Assembly (NCBI GenBank): GCA_002708925.1
Contig: PAPN01000014.1
Coordinates: 182,023 to 246,022, forward strand
Source: Paracoccaceae bacterium
Lineage (GTDB): Bacteria; Pseudomonadota; Alphaproteobacteria; Rhodobacterales; Rhodobacteraceae
DNA: 64,000 nt
Direction: 5' to 3'
Numbering within the stretch: position 1 is the first letter of the stretch; each line of letters begins with the position of its first letter. Under the pieces are notes generated by a model. It saw nothing but the letters and a program-made list of their open reading frames with translations, did not search any database and had not been told where the DNA came from. The translations under genes and the position numbers were made by a program. Shown piece by piece: positions 1-39,025 of this stretch.

Positions 1-263
1 CCCTTGGCTGCCCGTTCCAGCAGAGCCTGCGGGATAATGTCCAGATTGGCGATTGACAGCAGCCAGTCATAGCCCACATTCACGCGGTCTGCCAGGCCGG
101 GGCCTGCCTCGATCACCGTCAGCCCCTTGCCTGTTGCCCAGGCCGCGACGCTTGCGTTGCGGGTCACGACCGCGCACACCGTGTGCCCCTGCGACAGCAG
201 CACGTCTCCGCACTGAATGGCGAGCGATTCATTTCCGATCAGAAGCGTGGAAAAATTGGACAT
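1..263 (-). CDS. Formyltransferase-like N-terminus of a larger enzyme, probably an NRPS (cut by window edge)
   Basis: Only the first 87 codons are visible; the gene runs on past base 1. The start is the ATG at 261-263, with GGAG about 8 bases upstream. Only 5 bases separate it from the stop of the preceding glycosyltransferase gene, so the two are almost certainly co-transcribed. The opening residues (LLIGNESLAIQCGD) and a WLLSIANLDIIP segment near residue 70 resemble formyltransferase-like domains related to methionyl-tRNA formyltransferase. A version of this domain is known at the N-terminus of some non-ribosomal peptide synthetases. A polyketide synthase lies two genes upstream in the same operon, so an NRPS or PKS/NRPS megasynthase is the likeliest owner, but no adenylation or condensation domain is in view. 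A stand-alone formyltransferase is possible. Confidence 0.6.
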   Translation of the reverse strand, partial: MSNFSTLLIGNESLAIQCGDVLLSQGHTVCAVVTRNASVAAWATGKGLTVIEAGPGLADRVNVGYDWLLSIANLDIIPQALLERAAK

Positions 264-268
264 GGTGA

Positions 269-1291
269 CTACTCCGGTTTGCCCTCTGCGTCTGGAACAG
301 GGCGCGCAAGGCTGGGTTCACGCGCCCCGACCGAGGCACGCAGAATGGATTTCAGATCATGGGCCAGCAGGCTGCGCAGAAAATGCGGCGCCATGCCGGT
401 GGGTTTGCGGTCCAACTGGCGGCGCAGCCAATACAGCCCCCCGCCCAGCAGATGAACGCAGGTGGCGGCAACGGCATAGGCTGCGCCATGGTTCTTGGCG
501 AAATAATGCAGGCGCGAGTCGAACCAATAGTCCGGAACGCGGGCCCATTCCTTCATCCCGGTCGAGACCGAGCCAATATGCATCACCTGGCTATCGCGCA
601 CATAGACCGAGCGATACCCCTTGCGGTGGGCGCGCAGAAACAGATCGGTTTCCTCGAAATACAGAAAGAAGGTTTCGTCAAACAGGCCGATTTCCCGAAG
701 GGCATTCCAGCGCATCAATACGCTTGCGCCTGCCATCCAGTCGGCTTGGGCATTTGTCTGCGGTACGGGCAGGGCGATGATATGCCGACGCAGCAGCCGG
801 GACACAGGCCCAAAGCGAATGGCCCCCTCGAATTCTGACGCAACCGAGGGGAAGCGGAACAGGGTCTGATGCGGCGCTCCGTCCTCGCCGTGGATGTAGC
901 TGCCCGCGCACCAAAGCTGTTCGTCCTTATCCAGCGCGTCAATCAGCCGGCGGATGGCATCCGGAGCCGGGAAAGCGTCCGAGTTCAGAATATACACGAA
1001 ATCCGGCTGTGTTCCGTCGCTTAGCCCCGCGCGCATCCCCACGTTATTGCCTGCGCCGAACCCGCCGTTATGGCCGGATTGCAGGATGCGCACACGGTTG
1101 TTCTGATCCCAACCATGCGCTTGCGTATGGTTTTGCATCTTCTCAAAAGACCCATCGCCCGAGTCGTTGTCCACCACAACGATTTCCCCTGCGATACCCT
1201 CCATTGCGGTCAGCGCGGCTTTGACTGCGCGCAGGGTCATATCCGGCGTGCGCCAGTTCAGGATAACGGTCAGAAGCTTGGCCTGAGTCAT
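269..1291 (-). CDS. Glycosyltransferase family 2
   Basis: A 340-residue GT2-type (GT-A fold) glycosyltransferase. The N-terminus has the usual strand TVILNWRTPDMT, and the nucleotide-sugar loop VVVDNDSGDGS lies near residues 38-48. An NSDAFP segment near residue 104 may serve as the DxD-like metal site, and an EETDLFLRAHRKG segment near residue 217 corresponds to the conserved acidic/basic motif of this family. The overall pattern is closest to rhamnosyltransferase-like GT2 enzymes that act on lipid or polysaccharide acceptors; donor and acceptor cannot be read from the sequence. The start codon overlaps the stop of the polyketide synthase gene by 4 bases (ATGA), and the formyltransferase-like gene follows 5 bases after the stop. 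Its position between two biosynthetic genes suggests that it glycosylates the product of the cluster rather than building the neighbouring EPS. Confidence 0.85.
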   Translation of the reverse strand: MTQAKLLTVILNWRTPDMTLRAVKAALTAMEGIAGEIVVVDNDSGDGSFEKMQNHTQAHGWDQNNRVRILQSGHNGGFGAGNNVGMRAGLSDGTQPDFVYILNSDAFPAPDAIRRLIDALDKDEQLWCAGSYIHGEDGAPHQTLFRFPSVASEFEGAIRFGPVSRLLRRHIIALPVPQTNAQADWMAGASVLMRWNALREIGLFDETFFLYFEETDLFLRAHRKGYRSVYVRDSQVMHIGSVSTGMKEWARVPDYWFDSRLHYFAKNHGAAYAVAATCVHLLGGGLYWLRRQLDRKPTGMAPHFLRSLLAHDLKSILRASVGAREPSLARPVPDAEGKPE

Positions 1292-4200
1292 TCGGCAGCC
1301 TCCGGCAGCTCAAACGACGCGGCCTCTGAAATACACTCGCGGATGCGGGCGGCCAGAACGCGGACATTGGGCTCCAGAACCATCGAGTCATGATCCCCCG
1401 GCACCTCATACACGGCGATGTTGGGCGCGTGTTGGGCCCAGTCGTTATCGTCCAGCACATAGGCGCGTTCCGAGTTCACCCAGCGGCCCGGCCCGACCTC
1501 CCATTTCCCAACCAGAGGCGGGCGGAACAGGCACAGCGGGCCGTCCCACGGGCGGACACGATACTTGGCGACGGAACGCAGGAAGGCCTCCTCGATCTGG
1601 GCGTTGTGGAAACTATGGGCGGCCTCGGGCTGATCGGGCTGAATACCGCGACGTTTGGCGATTTCCCATTTCACCCGGTTGATCGCCCATTTCGCGATAT
1701 AGCCCAGCCCGCCGGCTTTTAGCTCTTGTTTCTGGATCTCCATACGGTCCTGACGGGTCAGCGGGCGGCGCACGGGCAGAGGCGTGTCCAGCAGCGCCAG
1801 AACCTGCACCTCTTCGCCTGCAACCTTCAGCTGTTGCGCGATCTCATAGGCGGTGATCCCGCCGCCTGAAAATCCGCCCACCATATAGGGCCCGTGCGGT
1901 TGCACCTGGCGGATTTCGGCGATGTAATCCCGCGCTGCCTGCACCAGATCGTCATGCGGCGCGTCCTCGCCATAGAGGCCGCGCGCTTGCAGCCCATAGA
2001 AGGGCCGGTCATGCCCCACCAGATGTGCCAGATGACGCAGGTTCAGCACGTTGCCGAACATGCCCGCCACCAGGAAGAACGGCGTTTCCGGCCCGCCCTC
2101 GCCCGAGTGCATGGGCACGATATGGGTAAAGCGGCGCTTGGCTGCGGTGGGCTGCGCGTCCTTGGGAGTCACACTTTCGGCGGAGCCTCCGGCCTCAGCG
2201 ATCAGGGCGGCGCATTTGCGGATCGTTGGCGCCTCGAACAGAACCGAGATTGGGAAGTCCACGCCAAAGACCTTTTTCACCTTGGCGAACAGGCGCACCG
2301 CAACCAAGGAATGCCCGCCCAGATCAAAGAAACTGTCCTCGGCCCCGATCTTATCGACGCCCAGAAGATCCTGCCAGATGGTGGCCAGCTGCTGTTCGGT
2401 CTCGCCTTCGGGGGCAACATATGCGCTGTCCAGCTCGGGGCGTTCAAACTTCTGTTCGGCGCTTTGCGTGGCTTCGGTCATGGCGGCCTGAGCGATCAGC
2501 CCCTGCAAATCCATCGAGGAAACAATGACTTGTGGCAGGCCTGTCGTCATCGCGCGGAAAAAGGCCTGCGCGCCCTCGGACGGGCGGATACCCTGCGAAA
2601 GGTTGTGCCGCAGGCGCTGCTCGGCGGGGGACAGCGGACGCGCGGCAGGCTCGGCCTGCGGAGCGCTGTTGCGGCGCGCGAACTCGAATCCCTTGTCCAG
2701 TTGGCGAATGGTGAAGTCTTTGATCACAACGCATACGGTGCCGTCTGGTTCGCAGATCGTTACATCAAAGCTGGCGGTCATGCCATCTGCGGAATTGGCG
2801 CTGGCATTGCGCACATGGCTGACGATCCGGTCCTGAATCGGCTGAAACACCCGGACCGAGCCATAGGACATCGGCACCCACAGATGGGTGGGCTGATAGC
2901 CGTCGATCAGTTCCATCGCCCAGCCGGTGGCCAGGTCCATCAGGCCCGGATGCAGGCCGCAACCGTCCCCAGCAAAGGTGGAATCCAGCGACAGATGCGC
3001 CAGCCCCTCGTTTTCGCCCAGGGCTGTTTTGCGCAGCACATGCCAGCGCGGGCCGAAGATCAGATGTGCCTCTTGCGGGGAACGGATATGCGTGTCCGAA
3101 GTCTGAACCCGCGGGCAGCGCGCTTGGATTTCAGCAAGCGGCAAGGCCGCAGGCTGGCGGATTGGCAACAGGGAAATCTCGGCCTGCGCGTTTTGTTCCA
3201 GGGCCCCATCCGGGCCGGTGCTTTCGACCCGGAAATCATACCCCAGATCGGATCGCGGCAGCGTCACACGAACCGAGCGCCCCTGATCGTCCACCTGCAA
3301 AGGGGCCAGAAAGGTCAGGTTGCGCAGCTCGAACGGGCCGGTTTCCCCCTGCGCCCGCAGGGCCTCGTAGGCCAGTTCCAGATAGCCGGTGCCAGGCACC
3401 AGGGCCTGCCCTGTGCGGGTGCGGTGTTCGTCCAGAATCCAGCGATCCTGCGGGGAATATTCGGCCCAAAATGTCCGGTTGCCGTCAGTGTCGAAACTGG
3501 CCCAATCCAGCAAAGAGCCCGAGATCGGCTGCTCCGGTGCGGGCTCTTGCGTTCCGGTGCGCGCGGCCATTGCCTCGGCGGCCATGCCGACATCGGCCCA
3601 GATCCCCCAGTCAATCGCCAGCACGCGGGTTTTGCCGCCCTGACGGGCCTTGGCAAAGGCGTTCAGATATTCATTGGCAGCGACGTAATCCACCTGCCCG
3701 GCCGGCGCCGTCACCGTCGAGGAGGACGAAAACAGCACCATCCAATCCAGGCTACCATCGGGGAACAGCCCGTCCAGCACCTGTGTGCCGTGGATTTTCG
3801 GGGTAAAGACATCCTCGATCTGGGTCAGGGATTTCCCCAGGATCGGTGCGTCACTGATGACACCGGCGGCATGGATCAGGCCGGTGATCGGGCCGAATTC
3901 GGATTCGGCCTGCGCTTTGGCGGCTTTCATCTCTTCGACATTCGACACGTCGGCACCGATAACCAGAACTCTGCCGCCCAGGGTTTCAAGTTGTTGAACG
4001 GCCTGAATGCGGCGCACGACCGAGGCACTGGGCGCGGTTTTGGCCAGCACGTCCTGCCAGTGTGCGCGATCGGGCAGGCCATCGCGCGAGAGCAGCACGA
4101 GGTTGGTACCGTGTTGCCTGATCAATTCGGCTGCGATGGTCAGGCCAACTCCGCCGAATCCGCCAGTGATCATCACAGTGCCGCCGTCGATGATGACGGG

Positions 4201-7200
4201 GGTTTCGGTCAGATCGACGGGCCGGTAAATTTGGGCAAAACGCTTGGATCCGCGTTGGGCGGCGACGCTATTGGCGGGGTTGGCCGGCAGTTCCTCAAGC
4301 ACCGGCTGAATATCTATACGCTTACGTTTGGTTTCAATATCCAGAACCGTGCAGGTCATGCCGGGGAATTCACGCGGGATCACACGGGCAGGGCCCATGA
4401 CGGTGGATTTTTCCGGATAGGGCAGTGGTTCGGATTTCACCTGCGCCGCGCCCGATGTGATGACCGTCAGATGTGCGTTTTCGACACCCTCGTCGCTAAG
4501 GGACTGAGCCAGAAACGTCAGCGCATAGAAGCCTTGCTCTAGGTTGCGATGAAAGAAACTGCTGCCGGGGCGATAGCTTTCTTTTTCTGTTACCAACCAG
4601 AAATGGCCGATCCTGTCAGGCAAGCTGCCCTGTGCTGCCAGCGTCTGTACCAGCAGGTCATAATCCTCGCGCCCCCGTTCGGGCGAGAGGACGAAACTGT
4701 CGTCCGAAAGCTGCGCGAACCCGTCGCCGGGCACCACGGTTATCACACGGTGCCCGCCGGTGCGCAGACGCGCGGCGGCTTGCTCGGCCACGCCGGTATC
4801 GTCTTGAAAAAACAGCCAGGTTTGCGGGGCGCCCAGTTCCTCGGTTACGTCCAGATCAATGTCCGCGAACGCGGGTTTCCAGAACGGGCGATAGCCCCAG
4901 CTTTCCAGATTATCCGAGCGCATGAGGAATGCCTCGGGGGTGTCCGTCTGTGCGGTGCCCGGTTCGATGAAATATTCCGACCGCTGAAAGGCATAGCTGG
5001 GCAGGGGCACGCGGTTGCGCCGCGCGTCTCCCCAGATTTGTTGCCAGTCGATTTCGACACCAACGGCCCAGACACGGCCCAACATGGCCATGAAATACTT
5101 ATCGTCAAAAATCTGATCGTCCGGGTGGCGCAGCGTCCCGATCACCTGGTTTGCCTGCACGTTCGGATGCTGCCCCGTCAACGAAGCCAGAGCCTTACCC
5201 GGACCGACCTCAATAAACACCCGTTCGGGCTGCTCGCTGAGCGTGGTGATCCCATCCGCGAAATGCACGGTTCCGCGCAGATGCTGCACCCAGTAGTCGG
5301 GATTTGTGGCCTCGGCATCCGTTATATACGCACCCGTACGGTTTGAGATGAATGGAATTTGCGGCGGGCTGAGTCTGATCGACCGCAGGTAATCGCCAAA
5401 CGGTTTCAGAATGGGATTCAACATGGCCGAATGCGCGGCGATGTCGATCGGAATACGCTGCGTTTGGATGTCCATCCCGGCCAACCTGCCTGCCAAGGCG
5501 TTCAGCGCGTCCTGAGCGCCACTGGCCACGCTCAGCCCCGGCGCGTTCACGGCGGCAAGATCCAGATCATCGCCCAGCAGAGGGCGCAATTCGGCGGCAT
5601 CCATCGGCACGCTGAGCATACCACCAGACGGCACCGTATCGAATAGCGAGCCGCGCAGATGCACCAGCCCGATACAGTCCTCAAAGCTCATCACGCCGGC
5701 CAGACATGCGGCGGTATTTTCACCCATCGAATGGCCAATCAGCGCGGCGGGCTTTACCCCCCAGGACATCCACAGCTGCGCCAGAGCATATTCGGTGATC
5801 ATGATCAGCGGCAGCTGCGCGGACGGACGTTTGAGCGCCTCATTCGCGGCGTCCTCGGCCCCCTCTTCGGGCAGCCACAGCGCGCGGATGTCGTAATCCA
5901 GCTTGGGTTGCAGAACCTCCAGCCCCTTGTCCATCCAGTCGGCGAAAACCGGCTCGGTTTCATAGAGATCCCGCGCCATGCCCGCGTATTGCGCGCCGCC
6001 GCCCGGAAACATGAAAACGACGTCCGGGTCCGGGCCCACCACCTGGTGGGTGAACACGCGGCGCGGGTCGTTTTGCTCTAGCAGACTGGCGGCTTCGTCA
6101 TGCGTATCGGCCACGATCACACGGCGGCGATCAAAGGCACGGCGTCCCTTGTGCAGGGTCCAGGCCACGTCGGCCAAGGGTTGATCCATACGCTGGCGTA
6201 GGTGCTGCGCCAGGCGTGCGCCGCTATCGTCCAGGGCCTTTTTCGACCGGGCCGAAAGCGTCAGCAGCTGAAACGGAAAATCCGCGGCGTCCGAGGGCGC
6301 GCGTTCGGGTGCCTCTTCAAGCACCACATGCGCGTTCGTGCCCCCCACGCCCAATGAATTCACCCCAGCACGGCGCGGCCCTTTGCGGCTGATCCAATCG
6401 GTCAGCCGGTCATTCACCCGGAAGGGCGAGCCATCGAAATCAATCGCGGGATTCGGCTTTTCATACCCTAACGAGGGCGGCATCTGTTTATGCGTCAGGC
6501 CCAGGCTGGCCTTGATCAGGCTGGCCACGCCCGCCGCCGTATCCAGATGCCCGATATTCGTCTTTACCGAGCCGATCCGACAGAACCCCACCGCATCCGT
6601 GCTTTCGCGGAAGGCGCTGGTCAGGGCGGCCACCTCGATCGGGTCACCCAGATAGGTGCCGGTGCCGTGGCATTCGACGTAATCAATCGTGTCGGCGGGA
6701 ATCTCGGCCAGCGCATGAGCATCGGCAATCGCGGCGGCCTGGCCTTCGACGCTGGGGGCCAGATACCCGGCCTTATCCGCGCCATCGTTATTCACCGCCG
6801 AGGATTTGATGAGGCCCCAGATGTGATCGCCATCCTTGATCGCGTCTTCAAGGCGGCGCAGCACGACGACACCGGCGCCCGAGCCAAACACCGTGCCCTG
6901 CGCGCGATGGTCGAACGCGTGACAATGGCCGTCGGGCGACAGAATCTCGCCCTCTTTGAACAGGTATCCACGGGCGTGGGGCAGCTCGATCGTGACGCCG
7001 CCCGCCAGGGCCATGTCGCATTCCCCGTTCAGCAGCGACTGACAGGCATAATGCGTGGCCACCAGAGACGTAGAACACGCCGTCTGCACATTCACCGAAG
7101 GGCCCTTGAGATCCAGAATGTGGCTAAGCCGCGTGGACATGAAATCCTTATCGTTGCCGGTGTGGCGCAGCAGGAACATACCCACGTTCTGCACCAGATC

Positions 7201-7620
7201 GGGGTTCGAGCAGATGTTGAAATAGAAATAGCTGCCCATGCCGCAGCCCGCGAAAACGCCAATGGGGCCGTCGAAATTCTCGGGCATGTGGCCGGCGTTT
7301 TCCAGGGCCTCCCAGCTGACCTCAAGGAATTGACGGTGCTGCGGGTCCATGATCGCGGCGTCCTGCGGGCCAAGGCCCCAGAAATCGGCGTCAAACCCTT
7401 TGAACCCCTCCAGCACGGCGGCGGCGGGGACGTAATCGGGGCGGTCGATCAGGTGAGGGGCCTCTCCGGCCTCGATCAGGTCATCGCGGGTCAGGTGACG
7501 GATGGATTCCACGCCGTCGCGCAGATTTTGCCAATACTGATCAACGGTCTGCGCCCCCGGCAGGTGCGCAGCCATCCCGACAATTGCAATGTCAGCTCCT
7601 GAATGCTGTTCGTCCGTCAT
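1288..7620 (-). CDS. Type I polyketide synthase, KS-AT-KR-DH-ACP-TE
   Basis: A 2110-residue modular enzyme read from the ATG at 7618-7620; an in-frame GTG three codons earlier (7629) is possible. Domains in order: ketosynthase, residues about 10-430, with active Cys182 in TACSTS and the two histidines in ECHGTGT and NIGHLDTA; acyltransferase, about 510-830, with Ser631 in GHSMGEN; ketoreductase, with structural half from about 930, cofactor loop GGFGGVG near 1155 and Tyr1312 in VDYVAANEY; dehydratase, with His1399 and Asp1562 in HPGLMDLATG; carrier protein, with phosphopantetheine Ser1771 in LGGHSLVA; C-terminal thioesterase, with Ser1918 in GGFSGGG and His2077. All catalytic residues I looked for are present, so it should load, condense, reduce, dehydrate and release. 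KR precedes DH, the reverse of the usual order, and there is no enoylreductase. The AT position that often reports substrate choice reads IAAHS, which is ambiguous. It is the first gene of the operon. Confidence 0.95.
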   Translation of the reverse strand: MTDEQHSGADIAIVGMAAHLPGAQTVDQYWQNLRDGVESIRHLTRDDLIEAGEAPHLIDRPDYVPAAAVLEGFKGFDADFWGLGPQDAAIMDPQHRQFLEVSWEALENAGHMPENFDGPIGVFAGCGMGSYFYFNICSNPDLVQNVGMFLLRHTGNDKDFMSTRLSHILDLKGPSVNVQTACSTSLVATHYACQSLLNGECDMALAGGVTIELPHARGYLFKEGEILSPDGHCHAFDHRAQGTVFGSGAGVVVLRRLEDAIKDGDHIWGLIKSSAVNNDGADKAGYLAPSVEGQAAAIADAHALAEIPADTIDYVECHGTGTYLGDPIEVAALTSAFRESTDAVGFCRIGSVKTNIGHLDTAAGVASLIKASLGLTHKQMPPSLGYEKPNPAIDFDGSPFRVNDRLTDWISRKGPRRAGVNSLGVGGTNAHVVLEEAPERAPSDAADFPFQLLTLSARSKKALDDSGARLAQHLRQRMDQPLADVAWTLHKGRRAFDRRRVIVADTHDEAASLLEQNDPRRVFTHQVVGPDPDVVFMFPGGGAQYAGMARDLYETEPVFADWMDKGLEVLQPKLDYDIRALWLPEEGAEDAANEALKRPSAQLPLIMITEYALAQLWMSWGVKPAALIGHSMGENTAACLAGVMSFEDCIGLVHLRGSLFDTVPSGGMLSVPMDAAELRPLLGDDLDLAAVNAPGLSVASGAQDALNALAGRLAGMDIQTQRIPIDIAAHSAMLNPILKPFGDYLRSIRLSPPQIPFISNRTGAYITDAEATNPDYWVQHLRGTVHFADGITTLSEQPERVFIEVGPGKALASLTGQHPNVQANQVIGTLRHPDDQIFDDKYFMAMLGRVWAVGVEIDWQQIWGDARRNRVPLPSYAFQRSEYFIEPGTAQTDTPEAFLMRSDNLESWGYRPFWKPAFADIDLDVTEELGAPQTWLFFQDDTGVAEQAAARLRTGGHRVITVVPGDGFAQLSDDSFVLSPERGREDYDLLVQTLAAQGSLPDRIGHFWLVTEKESYRPGSSFFHRNLEQGFYALTFLAQSLSDEGVENAHLTVITSGAAQVKSEPLPYPEKSTVMGPARVIPREFPGMTCTVLDIETKRKRIDIQPVLEELPANPANSVAAQRGSKRFAQIYRPVDLTETPVIIDGGTVMITGGFGGVGLTIAAELIRQHGTNLVLLSRDGLPDRAHWQDVLAKTAPSASVVRRIQAVQQLETLGGRVLVIGADVSNVEEMKAAKAQAESEFGPITGLIHAAGVISDAPILGKSLTQIEDVFTPKIHGTQVLDGLFPDGSLDWMVLFSSSSTVTAPAGQVDYVAANEYLNAFAKARQGGKTRVLAIDWGIWADVGMAAEAMAARTGTQEPAPEQPISGSLLDWASFDTDGNRTFWAEYSPQDRWILDEHRTRTGQALVPGTGYLELAYEALRAQGETGPFELRNLTFLAPLQVDDQGRSVRVTLPRSDLGYDFRVESTGPDGALEQNAQAEISLLPIRQPAALPLAEIQARCPRVQTSDTHIRSPQEAHLIFGPRWHVLRKTALGENEGLAHLSLDSTFAGDGCGLHPGLMDLATGWAMELIDGYQPTHLWVPMSYGSVRVFQPIQDRIVSHVRNASANSADGMTASFDVTICEPDGTVCVVIKDFTIRQLDKGFEFARRNSAPQAEPAARPLSPAEQRLRHNLSQGIRPSEGAQAFFRAMTTGLPQVIVSSMDLQGLIAQAAMTEATQSAEQKFERPELDSAYVAPEGETEQQLATIWQDLLGVDKIGAEDSFFDLGGHSLVAVRLFAKVKKVFGVDFPISVLFEAPTIRKCAALIAEAGGSAESVTPKDAQPTAAKRRFTHIVPMHSGEGGPETPFFLVAGMFGNVLNLRHLAHLVGHDRPFYGLQARGLYGEDAPHDDLVQAARDYIAEIRQVQPHGPYMVGGFSGGGITAYEIAQQLKVAGEEVQVLALLDTPLPVRRPLTRQDRMEIQKQELKAGGLGYIAKWAINRVKWEIAKRRGIQPDQPEAAHSFHNAQIEEAFLRSVAKYRVRPWDGPLCLFRPPLVGKWEVGPGRWVNSERAYVLDDNDWAQHAPNIAVYEVPGDHDSMVLEPNVRVLAARIRECISEAASFELPEAAE

Positions 7621-7717
7621 AAAGCCCACTCACACGAAAATATCCAAGCTCGTTTATGCCAATAAAATAAGGTCTCAATAGGGCGCTAGAGTGAATTTCT
7701 GGTCAATTTTGTCATTT

Positions 7718-7746: not shown

Positions 7747-9108
7747 TTACTGAATAAGGTGGGAAATATCATCCCAATGCAGCCAGAACACCGATGTGGC
7801 CAATACTGTGCCTGCCCCAAAGAACACCAGATCGTGCAGCGGATCCCAGGCCCCCTGGGCGCGCGCCAGCCAGATCACCACGGGATAAATCGCCACCATC
7901 GCTACGCCCTGCGCGATCAGAGCGCCAAACAGGCCGCCCATCTCAAATCCGATCAGCAGGCTCAGAGTCATCGCCACGGCCTTGGCCGCCGACAGCACGA
8001 AAAACCGCTGAGAATCGCCCTCGGCCAGGGCGGCCTGATCGTAGGTCAGCACGATGATCTGAGGCACCTGCATACAGGCCAAGGCCACCACCACCGGCCC
8101 GGCCATCAGATAGCGAGGATCGTACAACACCTGCACCAGCCACACGCCCAAAAGAGCCACCGTCAGCAGCATCACCATCAACACGCCGGTGGCGATGAAC
8201 CGCATTTTGCGCAGTCTCAGGAAATTCTCGCGCGATTGTCTGGGCGGGCTTTCGCGATGCACCGGAATGACGACCCGGCGGATCACCATCGCCCCCAGAA
8301 GTAGGGGAAAGGACGCCAGGAAATACCCGATATTGTAGACGCCGAACTGATCCAGATCCAGATACTTACCCAGGATCAGCTTATCCCCCTGCATGATCAC
8401 AAAGCCACACAGCGTGGACAGGAAAATCCATTTGCCGAAATGTATCAACTCTTGGGTGGCGGCTTTTTCCAGGCGGAACCGATTGCCCGGCCCAGGGATC
8501 AGCACATGCATAAAGAGCAGCTGCGCGACCGAGCTGACAATCCCCGACACCACCAGCGCCCACACGGACCGCGTGGCATAGGCCAGCGCAATCGCGGCAA
8601 TCAAACCGACAACCTGGGTGGCGATCTCAACGATGGTGACGCGGCCGGCGCGCATATGCCGGTTCGCGGTTTCGAACTTCGTGGGGTTGAACCCGGTGAT
8701 TAGCAGCGTCAATGCCGAGACCGGCAGATACCAGGCCAGCGCGGGTTCCTCGTAGATCAGTGACAAAGGATAGGCCAGCAGGCAGGCGGCCCCCCACAAA
8801 GCGCCGCCGCGCAGGATTTGCAGGGACCAGGCGGTGTCCAGAAACGCGGGCTCGTCGCCGCGTTTGCTCTGCATGATGGCGGGGCCCACCCCCATATCCG
8901 AGAACATCGTCAGCCCCACCAGAAACACGGTGATCAGGGCCATCATCCCAAAGGCCTCGGGGAACAGAATGCGTGTCAGCACCAGGTTCGACAGCAGCCG
9001 CAGCCCCTGATACGAGGCAAACCCCACCATGGTCAGCAAAGAGCTGCGCACAGCCCGTTCCATCAGGCCTCCGCCCTTTGTATACCGCCCGACCACCCGG
9101 TTGATCAT
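7747..9108 (-). CDS. Polysaccharide flippase, Wzx/PST type (EPS locus 1)
   Basis: A 453-residue polytopic membrane protein of the MOP superfamily. Hydrophobic segments alternate with short loops along the whole length, and the N-terminal region (TRILFPEAFGMMALI, FSDMGVGPAIMQ) is typical of the PST/Wzx lipopolysaccharide-exporter family. Such proteins turn undecaprenyl-diphosphate-linked repeat units to the periplasmic face of the inner membrane. The start ATG at 9106-9108 has AAGGATT upstream; an internal Met16 is a weaker alternative. The gene follows a GT2 gene on the same strand (36-base gap) and precedes the polyketide synthase, separated by a regulatory-looking gap. It could therefore serve the EPS or, less likely, a glycolipid from the PKS cluster. 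Confidence 0.88.
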   Translation of the reverse strand: MINRVVGRYTKGGGLMERAVRSSLLTMVGFASYQGLRLLSNLVLTRILFPEAFGMMALITVFLVGLTMFSDMGVGPAIMQSKRGDEPAFLDTAWSLQILRGGALWGAACLLAYPLSLIYEEPALAWYLPVSALTLLITGFNPTKFETANRHMRAGRVTIVEIATQVVGLIAAIALAYATRSVWALVVSGIVSSVAQLLFMHVLIPGPGNRFRLEKAATQELIHFGKWIFLSTLCGFVIMQGDKLILGKYLDLDQFGVYNIGYFLASFPLLLGAMVIRRVVIPVHRESPPRQSRENFLRLRKMRFIATGVLMVMLLTVALLGVWLVQVLYDPRYLMAGPVVVALACMQVPQIIVLTYDQAALAEGDSQRFFVLSAAKAVAMTLSLLIGFEMGGLFGALIAQGVAMVAIYPVVIWLARAQGAWDPLHDLVFFGAGTVLATSVFWLHWDDISHLIQ

Positions 9109-9144: not shown

Positions 9145-9975
9145 TTAGCGCCCCCGAATCCAGTCCGCGCCATCACGGTCCGGGGTCAGTTTCACGCAAA
9201 GCGCGACCCCTGCATATACCACAAACCCTAAGGGATGGCGTAACATTAACCCAAGAAGCATCGGGATAGACATGCGCGGTTTGGTATCGTTCGCCAGCAA
9301 ATCCGGATAAAGCGCGCCAACCTGATCCACGCCGATATTCTGCCGTCGCCGCACTTTGATCAGGTTCGAGAACCCCTCGACAATCGGCCAGTCATAGCCG
9401 GCACGCGTCTTCACCCGCTCGGACGGGGCAAAGCTGAGCCGTACAAAGGTATCGTCCGAGATGATGTCGGGAAAATCCCCCCACCGTTTGCGCCCGGCCG
9501 CGTTCACTGCGAACACACCGCATCCGGGCACATCCTGAGCAAAGAACGGCACCCGCGCATAGATCTGACGATAGGCGCGGCTGACCCAGGTTTCGGGCTG
9601 CGCGATCCGCACCGAACCGCTGGCATAGCGCGGTTGGTCACCGTCCAGCACCCGCCCGATTTGGCCGATCAGCGCAGGGTCCACCACCACGTCCGCATCC
9701 AGATAAATCCGCTTGTCCCCCTGGGCGATGTCATCCGCGCGGTTCATCGCGTTCATTTTCCCACCCTCGGCCAGGTCCAGCACGGCCAGGGCCCAGCCTC
9801 GGGCCTTTAGCGCCGTCTGTCTACCCTGCGCCGCCTGCACCGTCCGGTCTTGGCAGGCATTGGCGGCGACGATCACCTCGACCGGCTCGGGCGTCGCATC
9901 AGAGCGGGCCAGGGCATCCAGGCACCGGCCGATCATCTGCTCTTCGTTATTCGCAGGGATGATGATGCTGATCAT
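9145..9975 (-). CDS. Glycosyltransferase family 2 (EPS locus 1)
   Basis: A 276-residue GT-A glycosyltransferase. It begins MISIIIPANNEEQMIGRCL, the GT2 nucleotide-binding start. YLDADVVVDP near residue 91 is the DxD metal site, and DIISDDTFVRLSF near residue 170 supplies the acidic catalytic-base motif. The C-terminal 50 residues include a hydrophobic stretch (MLLGLMLRHPLGFVVYAGVAL) that could tether the enzyme to the membrane. It should add one sugar to a lipid-linked repeat unit on the cytoplasmic side. It lies upstream of the flippase on the same strand and is divergent from a GT4 gene across a 112-base gap that must hold both promoters. Donor and acceptor are unknown. Confidence 0.85.
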   Translation of the reverse strand: MISIIIPANNEEQMIGRCLDALARSDATPEPVEVIVAANACQDRTVQAAQGRQTALKARGWALAVLDLAEGGKMNAMNRADDIAQGDKRIYLDADVVVDPALIGQIGRVLDGDQPRYASGSVRIAQPETWVSRAYRQIYARVPFFAQDVPGCGVFAVNAAGRKRWGDFPDIISDDTFVRLSFAPSERVKTRAGYDWPIVEGFSNLIKVRRRQNIGVDQVGALYPDLLANDTKPRMSIPMLLGLMLRHPLGFVVYAGVALCVKLTPDRDGADWIRGR

Positions 9976-10087
9976 GTAAAGGCTCTGCTCTTTCTTGCCG
10001 GGGCACAGAAATATCGGTGGTTTATGTTTTTAATTGGGCCGGAACGCGGTTTATGTTGCAAGTGCGAATAACACCGGGATCCCGTCC

Positions 10088-11281
10088 ATGCCGCGTAAAC
10101 TTGCGTATCTTGTGCCCCAGTTTCCGGGTCAGACCCACATCTTTTTCTGGCGCGAGATTCAGCATCTGGAAAAGATGGGCATCGAGGTGCATCTGTTCTC
10201 GACCCTGCCGCCGCCGCCGGGGTTGATCTCGCATAGCTGGTCGGATGAGGCGATGGCACGGACGACCTATCTGGGCTCGCGCTCGGTGTTGGATTTGATG
10301 CGGTCGCTGCCCCGCCTGCCCTTGGCCGAGCTGATCCATGAGGTGCGACGCGATGGCCGCGCCGTGGCCAAGGATGCGCTGATCTGCATTCCCGCAGCGC
10401 AGCGGCTGGTGCGCGAATGTCAGGCGCGCGGGATCACGCATATTCACGCGCATTCGTGCGGGCGCGCGGCGATGATTGCGGCTTTGGCCAATCGGTTTGG
10501 CGGGCAGGAGTATTCGGTTACGCTGCATGGCCCTATGCAGGATTACGGCCCCGGACAGCATTTCAAATGGCGCCGCGCGCGGTTTGCGACGATCATCACG
10601 CAGAAGATCTATGGCGAAACGCAGGCAGAGCTGGGCGCTGATTTTCCGGCCCGCGTCACCGTTCGGGGCATGGGGGTGGATACTGATGTTCTGCGGCGGG
10701 ATGCGCCTTATCAGCCGCCCAGCGAGGGACAGCCCTTGCGAATTTTCACCTGCGCGCGGCTGCATTTCGTCAAAGGCCATCAGGATTTGATGGATGCGAT
10801 CGGGTTGCTGGTGGAGCGGGGTCAGAACGTCCGGCTGGACATCGCAGGCGAGGATGACGATGGCGGCTCGGGGTATCGTCATGTGCTGGAGCAAAAAATC
10901 CGGGCTTTGAACCTGTCAGCGCATGTGACGCTTTTGGGGGCGATTGATGCGGATGAGGTCAAGCGCCGCCTGTGCGACGCGCATCTCTTTGTTTTGGCCA
11001 GCTGGGCCGAGCCTTTGGGAGTTGCCTATATGGAAGCCATGAGCTGCGCGACCCCCACAATCGGCACCGATGCCGGCGGCGTGCCCGAGCTGATACAGAA
11101 CGGGCGCGACGGGATTTTGGTGCCTCCCAAAGACCCGCAGGCCATGGCCGATGCCATTGCGCGTCTGGTGGGCGATCCGGATTTGCTGACGCAGCTTAGC
11201 GCGGCCGGGCGCCAGACCATCGAGCAGCGCTTTGCCGCGCGGCTGGGGGCGGAAACGCTGGTTTCGGAAATCTGGCCCTAA
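10088..11281 (+). CDS. Glycosyltransferase family 4 (EPS locus 1)
   Basis: A 397-residue GT-B glycosyltransferase starting at the ATG at 10088 (MPRKLAYLVPQFPGQTHIFF); a TTG 54 bases earlier is in frame but adds unlike sequence. The C-terminal half carries the GT4 donor site: TCARLHFVKGHQDLMDAI, then FVLASWAEPLGVAYMEAMSCATP with the EX7E pattern, and a TDAGGVPELIQNGRDGILV segment. The QFPGQTHIFFWREI start is shared with WcaL/AmsK-like exopolysaccharide glycosyltransferases. It is transcribed divergently from the GT2 gene at 9145-9975, and its stop lies 3 bases from the convergent stop of the large secreted enzyme gene. It probably adds a late sugar in the repeat unit. Confidence 0.9.
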   Translation: MPRKLAYLVPQFPGQTHIFFWREIQHLEKMGIEVHLFSTLPPPPGLISHSWSDEAMARTTYLGSRSVLDLMRSLPRLPLAELIHEVRRDGRAVAKDALICIPAAQRLVRECQARGITHIHAHSCGRAAMIAALANRFGGQEYSVTLHGPMQDYGPGQHFKWRRARFATIITQKIYGETQAELGADFPARVTVRGMGVDTDVLRRDAPYQPPSEGQPLRIFTCARLHFVKGHQDLMDAIGLLVERGQNVRLDIAGEDDDGGSGYRHVLEQKIRALNLSAHVTLLGAIDADEVKRRLCDAHLFVLASWAEPLGVAYMEAMSCATPTIGTDAGGVPELIQNGRDGILVPPKDPQAMADAIARLVGDPDLLTQLSAAGRQTIEQRFAARLGAETLVSEIWP

Positions 11282-11284
11282 GGG

Positions 11285-14038
11285 TCAGAAGGCCAGTTCC
11301 AGCCGGGTGCCGGGTTCGGATTCGAATTCCAGGGCTTCGATATCGCGCAGGGCGATTTCTCCGTCCGGGCCGACGGCCAGCCAGGTGTCCCCCCACAGCG
11401 CCAGCGCGTAATCGTCTGAAATACCGGGTAAAACGGCGGTATCCGTGCCTGTGCCCCCGTGGATAATATCCGGCCCGCCGCTCGAGACGATCCGATCATC
11501 CCCGCCCTGGCCCATCAGAATATCCATCCAGCGGGTGCCGATCAGCTCTTGGTTGCTGGCGTCGCCGGGCAGGAACACACCATCGTCAAACGCGTCCTTT
11601 GGCCGGGTTTCCCAATCCGAAGGGCCGCTGCGATTATGAGCCATCAGCGCATCCCATCGGGGCGATTTATCCGCCAGATGCCGTTTGGCCCCCCAGCTGC
11701 CCCATTTCGAGGGCTTGGCCACATCCACAAACCCGTTGAACAACACACCGCCTGATGCCTGCCAACCGTTCAGCAGCAGCTGATATAACCCGCCGATTTC
11801 GGGCGCATAATTATACGCGGTCAGGATGCGCGTCAGGTCTTCGTTATCGACCCATTCATTCAGCCCCACCAGATGAGTGCCGCCTTCGTACATGATCAGG
11901 CGCAGGCCATACCGCTGGGCGGTTTTGGCGTGATAGGGAAATACCTCTTCGGTCAGGTTTTTCAGCGGGCCATCGCGCAGATAGGCGGTCAGTTTTTCCG
12001 TCAGAATGCCCTGCGTGTCCCAGCGCAGCAGGCGCGCGGGCATTTCCGTGTCATCCCCGTCCAGGCCGAAATAGCCGGTCACGGCATAGGCATCAAAGCT
12101 GTCGGCGGGGCGCGGCAGCCCCTCGGCTACGGCCAGAGGCGCGTCCAGAAGGGCCGATTCCAGCCCCGGCCAGCCGGTATGCACGCCCGCCACGCGGGTC
12201 AGCCGTTCGGTGCCACCAAACACGCGGGTCCAGATGTCCATCACCTGCGCCGCGCGCATCCCTGTCCATTGCATCCAGGCATCGCCCTCGGCCCCGTCCC
12301 AGCGGGTTTTGGCCTGCTCGATCGCCCAGCGGGTCTGTGAGAACAGGAAATTCCACATCTCATTCGAATATTCCACATAGGCCTTGCGGCGCGGGTCCAG
12401 ATGATCGCGCACATAAGTGGCGAACGCCTCGATATAGGCGTCATCGGCGGCATGAGGCATGTTGAACCACGGATCCGCGCCGATCTGATTGGCCAGTTGC
12501 ACCATCACCTCGACGGGGACGCCGCGGCGGCCATAGGTGTAATCTTGTGGGACGGGACGGTTCTGCCAATCGCTGACGAAAGAGCCATTGGTAATCATCC
12601 AATCCATGAAACGGATGACGCGCAGGTCTCGGATCAGTTCGACCCACAGAGGGTTAAACGTCACCCCCATATCGTACAGATCCGCGTGATCCTGATGCAC
12701 GATGGCGATGTTGCGGATGTGATCGTTCGGATCGGTGGCCAGAATGGACACGGCAACGGGGCCTTCGCCCGGTTCAAAGGTAAAACTGACCTGGCCGGGC
12801 TCATACCGGGCATTGCGGGCGCGGCCGCCAACGCGCAGGGTGCCGGTGCCCTCGTAGGTCAGCCGATAGCGGCCGGTGAAATACTGCGCCTCGCGGGGCA
12901 GATCCGTCAGCAGATAGCTTTCCAGCTTGTCCACACCTTCGGGCAGTTCCATTGGCCAGCCGTGTTCGTCCAGATACAGTTCTTCCTCCAGCTGGGTGGC
13001 CTCGAAGCCGCCGAATTGACCGTTCACATGGCCTAGCCAGGGGCGCGCGGTCTTCATCACGTTCAAAAAAGGGTACTGAGTCGCCCAGTCGTGAATCCCG
13101 TCCAGCCCCATCGCCAGGGCAGGCTGAGCAGAGGTCGGCACCGGGGCCACGCTGTTCAGCGCGGCGCGTTTGGTGCCCGTGGCCTGCGCGACCAGCGCCG
13201 AGATTTCCGCATAATTCGCTCGCACCAGCGGATGGATCGAGGACGGCAACACCAAAGCCGCAGGAGGCGCCACATCATAAAGCACCGCATAGGTCACCAT
13301 TGCCGCCAGAAAATAGGTGGTGGGCGTGCCATGCGGGGCGTCATCCAGATAGAGATCGGTGCCCTCCAGCTTTTTCAGCTCGGGCAGGGCATAGATTTGC
13401 GCCAATACGCTGGCCACCGGGATCAGCTCTGGCGGGTTGGAGGGGTAAATCTGCCCCAAAGCCTGCACATAATCCACGTACCAATCATGATACTCCCCGC
13501 CGTTGGCGCGGTGATATTTGCGCAATTGCCGGGCCGAGGGCGGATAGCGCCCGATCACCACACCCATATCGGCCCAGCCCTCGTAGACGAACAGGCGCGT
13601 CTGGGGCCCAGCCAGATCAAAGGCCATCTGCGCGGCCTTATTGGCGGTCAGCCCATTGGGATTGTTTTCGTCAAAGGATTCATCGGGGCGCAGGTATTGG
13701 ATGAAGTTCGTCGGCGTCAGGATCATCGCGTCATAGGCTGACACATCCCCGCGCCAGGCGGATTTCACGCCCTTCACGCTCCATTCAGCCTGGGGGGGCA
13801 GTTTACCCATGATGTCCTGAAGGAACACCCAGGTGCCATCGGCGCGCAGCTCTTTGCCGGCGGCCCTGGCGATATAGTTCAGCCAATACACCGCCGAGGT
13901 CTCATGCGTGTCGCTGGGGTGTTCAACCAGGCTGTTGCCAAAGAAATAGGCGGTGACTTGGCTGCGTTCGGTCGCTTGGACGGGGGGGCTGACCAGCAGC
14001 GACAGACAGGCCGCCAGCCAGAACTTGGCAAATCGCAT
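11285..14038 (-). CDS. Large secreted SGNH-like / glycosidase-like protein with RTX-type repeats
   Basis: A 917-residue protein I recognise only in parts. Residues 1-22 look like a Sec signal peptide (cleavage after VQA). An N-terminal SGNH-hydrolase-like domain follows: GNS with Ser36 as possible nucleophile, and the block-V motif DAPH (Asp233-His236). A glycoside-hydrolase-like region (about 500-770) has EYSNEMWN, with Glu560 placed like a clan GH-A acid/base, and MYEGG, with Glu718 placed like the nucleophile. About three nonapeptides of RTX form (GGDDRIV, GGPDIIH, GGTGTDT; about 843-870) suggest calcium binding. A Sec signal together with RTX repeats is unusual, because RTX proteins normally use type I secretion. 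It sits inside the EPS locus, 18 bases after the polymerase-like gene on the same strand, so it may trim or de-acylate the polymer. It is probably annotated simply as a calcium-binding protein elsewhere. Confidence 0.7.
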   Translation of the reverse strand: MRFAKFWLAACLSLLVSPPVQATERSQVTAYFFGNSLVEHPSDTHETSAVYWLNYIARAAGKELRADGTWVFLQDIMGKLPPQAEWSVKGVKSAWRGDVSAYDAMILTPTNFIQYLRPDESFDENNPNGLTANKAAQMAFDLAGPQTRLFVYEGWADMGVVIGRYPPSARQLRKYHRANGGEYHDWYVDYVQALGQIYPSNPPELIPVASVLAQIYALPELKKLEGTDLYLDDAPHGTPTTYFLAAMVTYAVLYDVAPPAALVLPSSIHPLVRANYAEISALVAQATGTKRAALNSVAPVPTSAQPALAMGLDGIHDWATQYPFLNVMKTARPWLGHVNGQFGGFEATQLEEELYLDEHGWPMELPEGVDKLESYLLTDLPREAQYFTGRYRLTYEGTGTLRVGGRARNARYEPGQVSFTFEPGEGPVAVSILATDPNDHIRNIAIVHQDHADLYDMGVTFNPLWVELIRDLRVIRFMDWMITNGSFVSDWQNRPVPQDYTYGRRGVPVEVMVQLANQIGADPWFNMPHAADDAYIEAFATYVRDHLDPRRKAYVEYSNEMWNFLFSQTRWAIEQAKTRWDGAEGDAWMQWTGMRAAQVMDIWTRVFGGTERLTRVAGVHTGWPGLESALLDAPLAVAEGLPRPADSFDAYAVTGYFGLDGDDTEMPARLLRWDTQGILTEKLTAYLRDGPLKNLTEEVFPYHAKTAQRYGLRLIMYEGGTHLVGLNEWVDNEDLTRILTAYNYAPEIGGLYQLLLNGWQASGGVLFNGFVDVAKPSKWGSWGAKRHLADKSPRWDALMAHNRSGPSDWETRPKDAFDDGVFLPGDASNQELIGTRWMDILMGQGGDDRIVSSGGPDIIHGGTGTDTAVLPGISDDYALALWGDTWLAVGPDGEIALRDIEALEFESEPGTRLELAF

Positions 14039-14056: not shown

Positions 14057-15439
14057 TTACATCACACTTTTCAATTTCATCTTCGATGAACGGACATAGA
14101 TGTCATCCCGCTCAGCATAGCCCAAAAGAGCGCCCACCCACAGCCAGGTCAGCGGCGTTAGCGTCGCATTGGGCAACAGATCGAACACATTCAGGGCTAA
14201 AAACAGGGCCATGCCCGTTACATAGGGCGAAGCATGTTCCAGCACCGAGCCGCGCAGCTTGTGCCATAACAGGAAGATCGGCCACAAAAGCAGCCCGAAC
14301 ATCGCCAGCCATCCGGCCCAGCCAAAGACGCCCAGAATGATCACCCAGTAACCGTCGGCTACGGTTTCAGGCGTGCCGGTTGCCGGATTCAGCACCAGAT
14401 TGCGCCCCCAGCTGCCCCACCCGAACAGGGGCTTATCCAGGGCGCGTTCCAGCAGGACGTTTTCGTTTTCCAGCCGGTAGCGCAGCGATCCGGCGCGATC
14501 CTCGCTGATTTTCTCGGCCTGTTCCAGAAGTTGGCGCTCGGGCACCAGATTGGCGCTTTTGAGCATGGGGTAGCTTAGCGTCAGAATTGCCAGACACATT
14601 GCGGTCAGCAACTGCATCCGGCGCGGCAGGAACAACAGCAGCGGCAGCAGAAGGATCGCATACATCAGGGACGCCAGGGATTTGCACAGCACCAGAACGC
14701 CGAACAGATACGCAGCCGCGACCATGGCGTAGGTTTTGGTGCGCCCGGTTTCGCCGCGCAGCAGGATTACCGCAGACACCATCGTTCCCATGATGAAAAA
14801 CGCAGCCCACAGCCCGTGATACAGGAACACGATGGGACGGAATCCGCCCTCGCGGATCATTTGTTCAAAGCTGTGCTGGAAAAACCCATAGACCCAGATG
14901 TTGATCTGCGGGCTTAGCCGGACTTCAAGCAGCATCGGAATCGAATAGATCAGCCCGGCCGCGACAAAAGCGATCAGCAGATCGCGCTGGTCCTTGGAGG
15001 TTTTCAGCAGGCTGCGCGCCAGCAAAAAGGGCGCGATGATGGACATCTGGCGGAACATGGTGGACACCATGTCCTTGATCCCCATGCCCGGCAGACCGAT
15101 CCGCCCGAAGAAGACGGGTTCCAGATTGGTGATGGTCGTGCCCAGAGGGCTGATGACGAACAGCACCAGAAACACCCGCGCCACGCGGCTGTCGGGCAGC
15201 AATTGGATGCGGTCCCGGTACAGCGCCAGACACAGGATCAGAACCGTCAGATTCGGCAGAGATTCCTTGTTCAGCGGCGGCAACAGAGGCGGGTCAAACG
15301 CCGTCGGCTGCGGTGGCAGGAACAGATAGGCCCCCAACAGGCTGACAATCAGCGCGCGGCCAGGGGGCATCGACCGGAAAATCACCAGGCAGATCAGTGG
15401 CGACAGGGCCAGTACCAGAAATGCGAAACTGTTTGGCAT
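14057..15439 (-). CDS. Polysaccharide polymerase / O-antigen-ligase-like membrane protein (EPS locus 1)
   Basis: A 460-residue integral membrane protein with about ten to twelve hydrophobic segments. The start is the ATG at 15437-15439 with AGGA upstream; a TTG one codon earlier is in frame. A long non-helical stretch near residues 285-350 (ERQLLEQAEKISEDRAGSLRY, then a tryptophan/glycine-rich FGWGSWGRN motif) fits the large periplasmic loop of Wzy polymerases and O-antigen ligases. The FGWGSWG segment resembles the WxxW/GxG region often found before the last helices. In a Wzx/Wzy pathway it would join flipped repeat units in the periplasm. It lies 18 bases upstream of the secreted enzyme gene and divergent from a GT4 gene. 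Polymerase versus ligase cannot be decided from sequence alone. Confidence 0.75.
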   Translation of the reverse strand: MPNSFAFLVLALSPLICLVIFRSMPPGRALIVSLLGAYLFLPPQPTAFDPPLLPPLNKESLPNLTVLILCLALYRDRIQLLPDSRVARVFLVLFVISPLGTTITNLEPVFFGRIGLPGMGIKDMVSTMFRQMSIIAPFLLARSLLKTSKDQRDLLIAFVAAGLIYSIPMLLEVRLSPQINIWVYGFFQHSFEQMIREGGFRPIVFLYHGLWAAFFIMGTMVSAVILLRGETGRTKTYAMVAAAYLFGVLVLCKSLASLMYAILLLPLLLFLPRRMQLLTAMCLAILTLSYPMLKSANLVPERQLLEQAEKISEDRAGSLRYRLENENVLLERALDKPLFGWGSWGRNLVLNPATGTPETVADGYWVIILGVFGWAGWLAMFGLLLWPIFLLWHKLRGSVLEHASPYVTGMALFLALNVFDLLPNATLTPLTWLWVGALLGYAERDDIYVRSSKMKLKSVM

Positions 15440-15530
15440 CAATCCTATGCGCGGGCCGGATTGTGGCGCCGCATCTGCTCGGGGTTCTTGTTGTTTCTAT
15501 CCTGTTTAGCAAAGTGGTACGGCAAAATAA

Positions 15531-38868: not shown

Positions 38869-39025
38869 GTTACCTAACCATCTCTTGTTTGTTGCCTGTT
38901 TCATCGCCCCGTGGATCGAGGCCTTCGTTATCTGCGACATGATTCGCATATTCGCCGGGGCAAAAGCAATCTTCTAATCCGGACGGAAGCGCGAAAATCG
39001 AGTGTCAGTCGCCCGGAAAGGCACC

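Follow-up and report, generated by a model that had tools for sequence, protein, structure and literature searches.

At the left edge of a 64,000-nucleotide stretch of the 3.42-Mb draft genome of a Paracoccaceae bacterium (contig PAPN01000014.1, G000:C7:182023-246022; henceforth ‘the window’) lies a four-gene operon that combines a nonribosomal peptide synthetase (NRPS) and a type I polyketide synthase (PKS) with a GT2-type glycosyltransferase and a phosphopantetheinyl transferase (PPTase). We propose that this operon specifies a two-protein assembly line that would make a small acyl unit derived from N-formyl-glycine for a Wzx/Wzy-type exopolysaccharide, a reading for which we infer the order of action, the substrate, the product and its attachment, and to which we give a probability of roughly 0.5. 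As judged from the sequence, the NRPS and PKS modules both have intact catalytic residues and are encoded together with the PPTase and the glycosyltransferase inside a Wzx/Wzz-type polysaccharide locus. The near-constant pairing of this cassette with one exopolysaccharide gene set across related genomes suggests that the operon makes part of the polysaccharide.

An intact NRPS-PKS operon within a polysaccharide locus

The contig extends to the left of the window, and coordinates there are given in L003 (window position = L003 position - 10000). Open reading frames and Pfam matches define four tightly packed genes, all on the minus strand: the PKS (2113 amino acids in one open frame; 1288..7629), the GT2-type glycosyltransferase (GT2; 340 amino acids; 269..1291), the NRPS (1506 amino acids; L003:5743-10263), whose N-terminal 87 codons, belonging to a formyltransferase domain, occupy window positions 1..263, and the PPTase (213 amino acids; L003:5105-5746), which follows the NRPS. 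The ATG of the GT2 gene (1291-1289) overlaps the TGA stop of the PKS gene in a shared ATGA, five bases separate the NRPS ATG at 263 from the GT2 stop, and the PPTase gene overlaps the NRPS stop by four bases. A preliminary description of the window had proposed that the first three of these genes are coupled in one operon, and both this and the spacing it gave proved exact, with the PPTase now added; it had also anticipated NRPS domains behind the formyltransferase part, and once the sequence is extended leftwards AMP-binding and PP-binding domains are indeed present. Since the left-edge gene encodes a 1506-residue NRPS, a short, stand-alone housekeeping methionyl-tRNA formyltransferase (about 310 amino acids) is ruled out. 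Pfam scores are far beyond chance (ketoacyl-synt in the PKS, E 2.2e-70; AMP-binding in the NRPS, E 1.6e-89); for the GT2, a search at E 0.01 found no solved structural relative.

The PKS has the Pfam domain order ketosynthase (KS), acyltransferase (AT), ketoreductase (KR), dehydratase (DH), acyl carrier protein (ACP) and thioesterase (TE), with the KR preceding the DH and no enoylreductase (ER) found. On the minus strand these domains comprise the KS (residues 13-439; 6313..7593) with its Cys-His-His triad intact, the AT (538-839; 5113..6018) with GHSMG and, at the usual specificity motif, IAAH, the KR (1150-1346; 3592..4182) with Ser and Tyr intact, the double hot-dog DH (1382-1646; 2692..3486) with His and Asp intact, the ACP (1746-1810; 2200..2394) with GGHS, and the TE (1875-2113; 1291..2007) with an intact Ser-Asp-His triad. 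The closest solved KS-AT structure is 8xju (E 5e-221). We aligned homologues from related loci, leaving aside PKSs shorter than 1900, NRPSs shorter than 1300 and GT2s shorter than 250 amino acids, and found the KS Cys-His-His, AT Ser, KR Ser/Tyr, DH His/Asp, ACP Ser and TE Ser-Asp-His to be invariant in all 119 aligned PKSs.

In the NRPS, Pfam recognises a Formyl_trans_N domain (F), an AMP-binding adenylation domain (A) split in two by Bac_luciferase, AMP-binding_C and a PP-binding carrier domain (T), and no thioesterase domain. Of 129 aligned NRPSs, 128 have the formyltransferase Asn, 127 its His and 127 its Asp; the carrier Ser is found in 127, the other two having gaps at this position. A structural model covering the first 518 residues of the L084 homologue, with a predicted local distance difference test (pLDDT) score of 92.9, contains at residues 2-288 a complete formyltransferase fold of the Fmt/ArnA type (Z of about 25 to both ArnA and Fmt). 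About 200 residues between F and A match no Pfam family; a condensation-domain origin was considered for this segment and not retained, as its last 60 or so residues alone match a solved NRPS, and weakly (E 0.15). The insertion in A is a monooxygenase of family TIGR04020 (486 bits against a cut-off of 244), matched at residues 746-1097 between motif A4 (from residue 704) and motif A5 (at residue 1176), and its nearest solved relative is that of PuwE (6ket, E 2e-106).

Positions 1-9 of the adenylation code read DILQ(M/L/F/Y)GMIW in 126 of the 129 NRPSs, the tenth is Lys (K1370) in all of them, and the NRPS of the window has DILQMGMIWK. Glycine-activating domains have the code DILQLGLIWK, which the window code resembles, although a search of the open-licence PMC literature for that string found no paper. 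Over the pocket segment the best solved match is 5u89, which we take to be the glycine-activating module of DhbF. The second module of LgrA, presumably also a glycine module, was dropped as proof of specificity because its pocket residues differ from the NRPS code, and the glycine assignment therefore rests on the code and on the match to 5u89. With a single amino acid (glycine by the code) and a single PKS module predicted, the glycosylated polyketide or polyketide-peptide of the preliminary description holds as far as a hybrid of polyketide and amino acid is expected; a large polyketide-peptide is unsupported, unless the PKS iterates.

The cassette co-occurs with one set of exopolysaccharide genes

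To relate the cassette to its surroundings we compared loci from other genomes. Of 55 places above the TIGR04020 cut-off, 50 were taken as 20-kb regions (omitting the window’s own genome, G022, G028, G069 and G098), and a genome scan contributed 80 of its 147 confirmed stretches; three near-identical pairs exist between the two sets. Eleven of the 130 loci fetched were shorter than 19 kb and were dropped, so that locus counts are over 119. Relatives of the PKS, GT2 and NRPS occur together in 117 of these loci, in at least one of which (L153) the GT2 match is distant and lies elsewhere in the locus, and a PPTase relative occurs in 102. At least two relatives of 14 other query genes from the window’s polysaccharide island were found in 111 loci, and a relative of Wzx, Wzy, Wzz, CpsD or WecG in 112. 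By comparison, none of 20 regions taken elsewhere on the same contigs of 20 cassette genomes holds any island-gene relative, a control that, with query genes all taken from the island, measures relatives of island genes and no others. Two settings recur: GT4-GT2b-flippase-[cassette]-Wzz-CpsD, as in the window, and WecG-Wzy-like-[cassette]-hydrolase-GT2b, where GT2b denotes a second GT2-type glycosyltransferase.

The association extends to whole genomes. In a family sample of 149 genomes, close to one for each genus, we scored the C-terminal region of the PKS at E < 1e-100 and GT2b at E < 1e-60, thresholds that we set at visible gaps in the scores. Fifty-three genomes have both genes, one (G118) has the PKS only, three (G024, G098, G104) have GT2b only and 92 have neither (phi 0.94; Fisher 2e-35, a value not to be taken at face value because genera share ancestry); G098 holds a fragment of the PKS. 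In 15 of these 53 genomes no PKS-GT2b pair lies within 20 kb: on a single contig, 163 and 582 kb separate the genes in two genomes; seven others have the PKS more than 20 kb from its contig ends and GT2b on another contig; and the remaining six (G028, G069, G087, G114, G124, G147) may only reflect fragmented contigs. An equally patchy control, the photosynthetic reaction centre (60 of 149 genomes), gave a phi of -0.08 with the PKS. A putative secreted hydrolase of the island and the PKS occur together in 51 genomes and singly in 3 and 4, with neither present in 91, and the corresponding counts for the inserted monooxygenase and GT2b are 50, 3 and 6, and 90. Overall, the comparison points to an operon product that serves the polysaccharide.

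Proposed role of the assembly line

In the scheme that we favour, the PPTase would activate the carrier domains of both the NRPS and the PKS, and the NRPS would load glycine, which its N-terminal formyltransferase would formylate. The flavin mononucleotide (FMN) monooxygenase inside the adenylation domain would hydroxylate the alpha carbon of glycine, a reaction also suggested for the myxothiazol and melithiazol glycine modules; the PKS would then add at least one two-carbon unit, reduce it and dehydrate it, and its thioesterase would release the acyl unit or transfer it to a sugar. Incorporation of the modified sugar into the repeat unit may fall to GT2 and GT2b, and export of this unit to the flippase and polymerase nearby. 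Three features of the product, namely formyl-glycine, an alpha-hydroxyl and a but-2-enoyl group, are predictions, as is its point of attachment. One chemically specific extension, which we consider a long shot, is that the exopolysaccharide bears an aldehyde in masked form: N-formyl-alpha-hydroxyglycine, a carbinolamide, would through one round of extension, reduction and dehydration become a 4-formamido-4-hydroxybut-2-enoyl (butenolide-like) group, in chemical terms a protected 4-oxobutenoyl unit, which on a repeat-unit sugar could cross-link to amines and serve as a covalent biofilm glue.

If the product is a substituent of the polysaccharide, an old cryptic natural product, made by an orphan assembly line that roughly one in three of the sampled family genomes carries, would be a cell-surface trait; screens for soluble metabolites might overlook it for that reason, and the polysaccharide would be the place to look. 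To our knowledge, an NRPS-PKS line that feeds glycan assembly would be rare.

Exceptions and alternative explanations

Several observations weigh against a role in the polysaccharide. Fewer than two polysaccharide-type genes were scored in 8 of the 119 loci, three of which (L034, L120 and L098) have none, although a GT4-type gene does adjoin the cassette in L098. The monooxygenase occurs without GT2b in three genomes (G022, G118, G144) and GT2b without the PKS in two (G024, G104), and GT2 is missing from the immediate cassette in Aminobacter and Shinella. G144 (L034, L170) has a related F-A-monooxygenase-T NRPS within a long PKS/NRPS cluster, where none of the polysaccharide genes looked for is present. 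The glycine call draws in part on a code from which the LgrA module departs, the genera compared are phylogenetically non-independent, and the regional control has the scope noted above. Gene-tree distances failed to separate the cassette partners from the flippase, as the correlation between NRPS and PKS (0.69) is no higher than that between NRPS and Wzx (0.75), with only 5 PPTase sequences included. In the literature we found no product, mutant or expression data for the cluster. A dedicated acyltransferase joining the acyl unit to the sugar was not identified, none having been searched for across the loci, and the thioesterase is no more than a candidate for this transfer.

Two genomes that at first look like exceptions to the co-occurrence, G097 and G085, hold variant cassettes. 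In G097 (L164) the cassette has decayed, which also speaks against the proposed role: its gene order is kept, but inspection by eye shows the monooxygenase to be missing, F, KS, AT, KR and the NRPS carrier to be without their active residues, the PKS to be in two frames and the DH, ACP and TE residues to be still in place, and alongside it relatives of the flippase, GT2b, hydrolase, Wzz and CpsD are retained. In G085, where the locus ends inside the NRPS, the adenylation domain is uninterrupted and has a glycine-like code, the KR is without its Ser and Tyr and the F, KS, AT, ACP and TE residues are kept (all by eye), and Pfam finds no DH. The joint loss of the monooxygenase, the KR catalytic residues and the DH fits a scheme in which the three act on one chemical feature, this being one case only. 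Together, both variants indicate that the chemistry varies and that it can decay while the polysaccharide genes stay.

The explanation that competes most directly, and which we hold to be possible though doubtful, is that the operon makes a free glycosylated small molecule, such as a signal, an antibiotic or a siderophore-like compound, and is found with polysaccharide genes either because both serve life on surfaces or because this molecule is what GT2, GT2b and the flippase act on. Excerpts of the literature treat such clusters as secondary-metabolite clusters with an unidentified product (PMC5014874, PMC10584327), the thioesterase could simply hydrolyse the product, and the long cluster of G144 may yield a soluble product built on the same starter. 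Set against this are the near-perfect co-occurrence with GT2b and the strong one with the putative secreted hydrolase, which persist when the genes are unlinked, and the recurrence of the cassette among polysaccharide genes in other orders and in Deinococcus. The preliminary description had suggested that the adjacent flippase could export a lipid-linked product; exopolysaccharide genes and a flippase do adjoin the operon, but the flippase belongs to the polysaccharide locus, and the comparison of loci favours a product that serves the polysaccharide over an independent glycosylated natural product.

A lipid role has been proposed for the capsule PKSs RkpA and WcbR, and an iterative PKS could likewise make a lipid or polyene on which the glycan is built or by which it is anchored, the chain being unsaturated because the PKS has a KR and a DH and no ER. 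The place of wcbR and rkpA in capsule clusters (excerpt of PMC3908369) and the single-module PKS with its own TE, with a PPTase and a glycosyltransferase beside it, would suit such an anchor; we nevertheless judge it unlikely, as an NRPS module with a formyltransferase start is unexpected for a lipid and the four-gene cassette contains no fatty-acyl ligase, the neighbouring genes not having been searched for one. The island might instead be a hot spot in which the cassette merely travels, with no functional tie to the polysaccharide. Plasmid copies of the cassette and its decay in G097 next to retained polysaccharide genes are in keeping with this, yet it is hard to reconcile with co-occurrence in the two genomes with genes 163 and 582 kb apart and the seven with genes on separate contigs, with the phi of the unrelated patchy gene and with strongly conserved active sites, and we consider it improbable.

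Relation to known systems

According to the excerpt of PMC5014874, a 2016 paper that credits Martens et al. 2007, a PKS, a glycosyltransferase, an NRPS and a PPTase form a set conserved in roseobacters whose product was not identified. By description, the operon of the window has the same four kinds of gene, and the locus numbers of Inhi_1972 (PKS) and Inhi_1974 (NRPS) of P. inhibens, with one number between them, fit the same order. The preliminary description knew of no characterised product for such an arrangement; none was found here either, but the arrangement itself had already been reported. The operon is a further member of this known orphan cluster: the excerpted text makes no link to a polysaccharide, a tie that was also not found among the matches listed from the open-licence PMC literature, so that the polysaccharide assignment is the part not found in print, and domain prediction and co-occurrence are added here. 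New NRPS-like/T1PKS hybrids reported for 18 species among 37 genomes studied (excerpt of PMC10584327) may include this cassette.

The best whole-protein solved matches to the NRPS are chains of the linear gramicidin synthetase LgrA (9be3, E 5e-244), which likewise has a formyltransferase at the N-terminus of an adenylation-carrier module, with Asn-His-Asp present in the window protein. The latter differs in the 200 or so residues that keep F from being directly followed by A-T, in the FMN monooxygenase inside A, in the PKS encoded alongside and in an F domain closer to the Fmt/ArnA type (1fmt, E 2e-15) than to LgrA (5es5, E 6e-9). We take MtaG and MelG to be the names of the glycine modules of myxothiazol and melithiazol. 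In these modules a monooxygenase is inserted between A4 and A5 (excerpt of PMC10204066), the same place as in the window NRPS when compared by description rather than by sequence; there, hydroxylation leads to cleavage and amide release, whereas the window module would formylate and is without a thioesterase. The monooxygenase domain of PuwE, the closest solved structure to the inserted domain, is proposed to help tailor the chain of puwainaphycin to a 3-amino-2-hydroxy acyl group (excerpt of PMC4219810), but PuwE is a PKS-aminotransferase-monooxygenase-NRPS hybrid. As with the capsule PKSs RkpA and WcbR, a type I PKS gene lies here within a polysaccharide locus; the excerpt of PMC3908369 mentions no NRPS partner.

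Distribution of the cassette

The monooxygenase scores above the TIGR04020 cut-off in 53 and the PKS is present in 54 of the 149 family genomes. A profile of the F region picked out 15 of the 398 genomes sampled from the phylum, of which ten belong to the family and five to other families of its class, and named carriers in the genome scan include many Rhodobacterales and Hydrogenophaga. Among the matches listed, the closest named NRPSs are those of Thalassobius vesicularis (82%) and Thalassovita litoralis (83%, best segments in both cases), with which the window NRPS groups in the tree (support 1.0). Burkholderiales NRPSs and nine from Rhodobacterales, including Paracoccus and Rhodobacter, form a clade of 21 (support 0.97, midpoint root), a grouping that suggests transfer. 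One member counted with the Rhodobacterales, L145, comes from a metagenome-assembled genome titled Exiguobacterium profundum; its cassette is Rhodobacterales-like and the title is probably a mislabel. NRPS, PKS and PPTase genes lie amid polysaccharide genes on plasmids of Paracoccus, Ruegeria, Aminobacter and Shinella, and a Deinococcus plasmid record has an NRPS and a PKS among such genes. G126 has two NRPS-PKS pairs (L037, L075), the second in a different setting. In Hydrogenophaga flava, the second gene after the cassette PPTase (L098 16604-22615, plus strand) encodes another NRPS with two AMP-binding, one condensation, two carrier and one TE domain.

The neighbouring polysaccharide island

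Directly upstream of the PKS, on the minus strand, is a MOP-type, Wzx-like flippase (7747..9108, 453 amino acids; Polysacc_synt_3, E 3e-48), followed by GT2b (9145..9975, minus strand, 276 amino acids) and a GT4-type glycosyltransferase (10034..11281, plus strand, 415 amino acids), both recognised by Pfam. The putative secreted glycoside hydrolase (11285..14038, minus strand, 917 amino acids), which co-occurs with the PKS as described above, has a signal peptide by eye, weak C-terminal RTX repeats and a body that matches no Pfam family; its predicted structure (pLDDT 72) is similar to TIM-barrel glycosidases (4atw, E 4e-6, low TM-score), and it may possibly represent a new glycoside hydrolase family tied to the polysaccharide. 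Next to it, a polytopic protein (14057..15442, minus strand) has a weak likeness to Wzy and O-antigen ligases (22.1 bits, below the Pfam cut-off of 31.7). The island spans L002:14978 to about window position 38949, with two flippases, two Wzz-like proteins and one Poly_export protein, and is bordered on both sides by flagellar genes, with MotB, FlgE and FlgI on the left and a FliR-type protein, FlhB and flagellin on the right.

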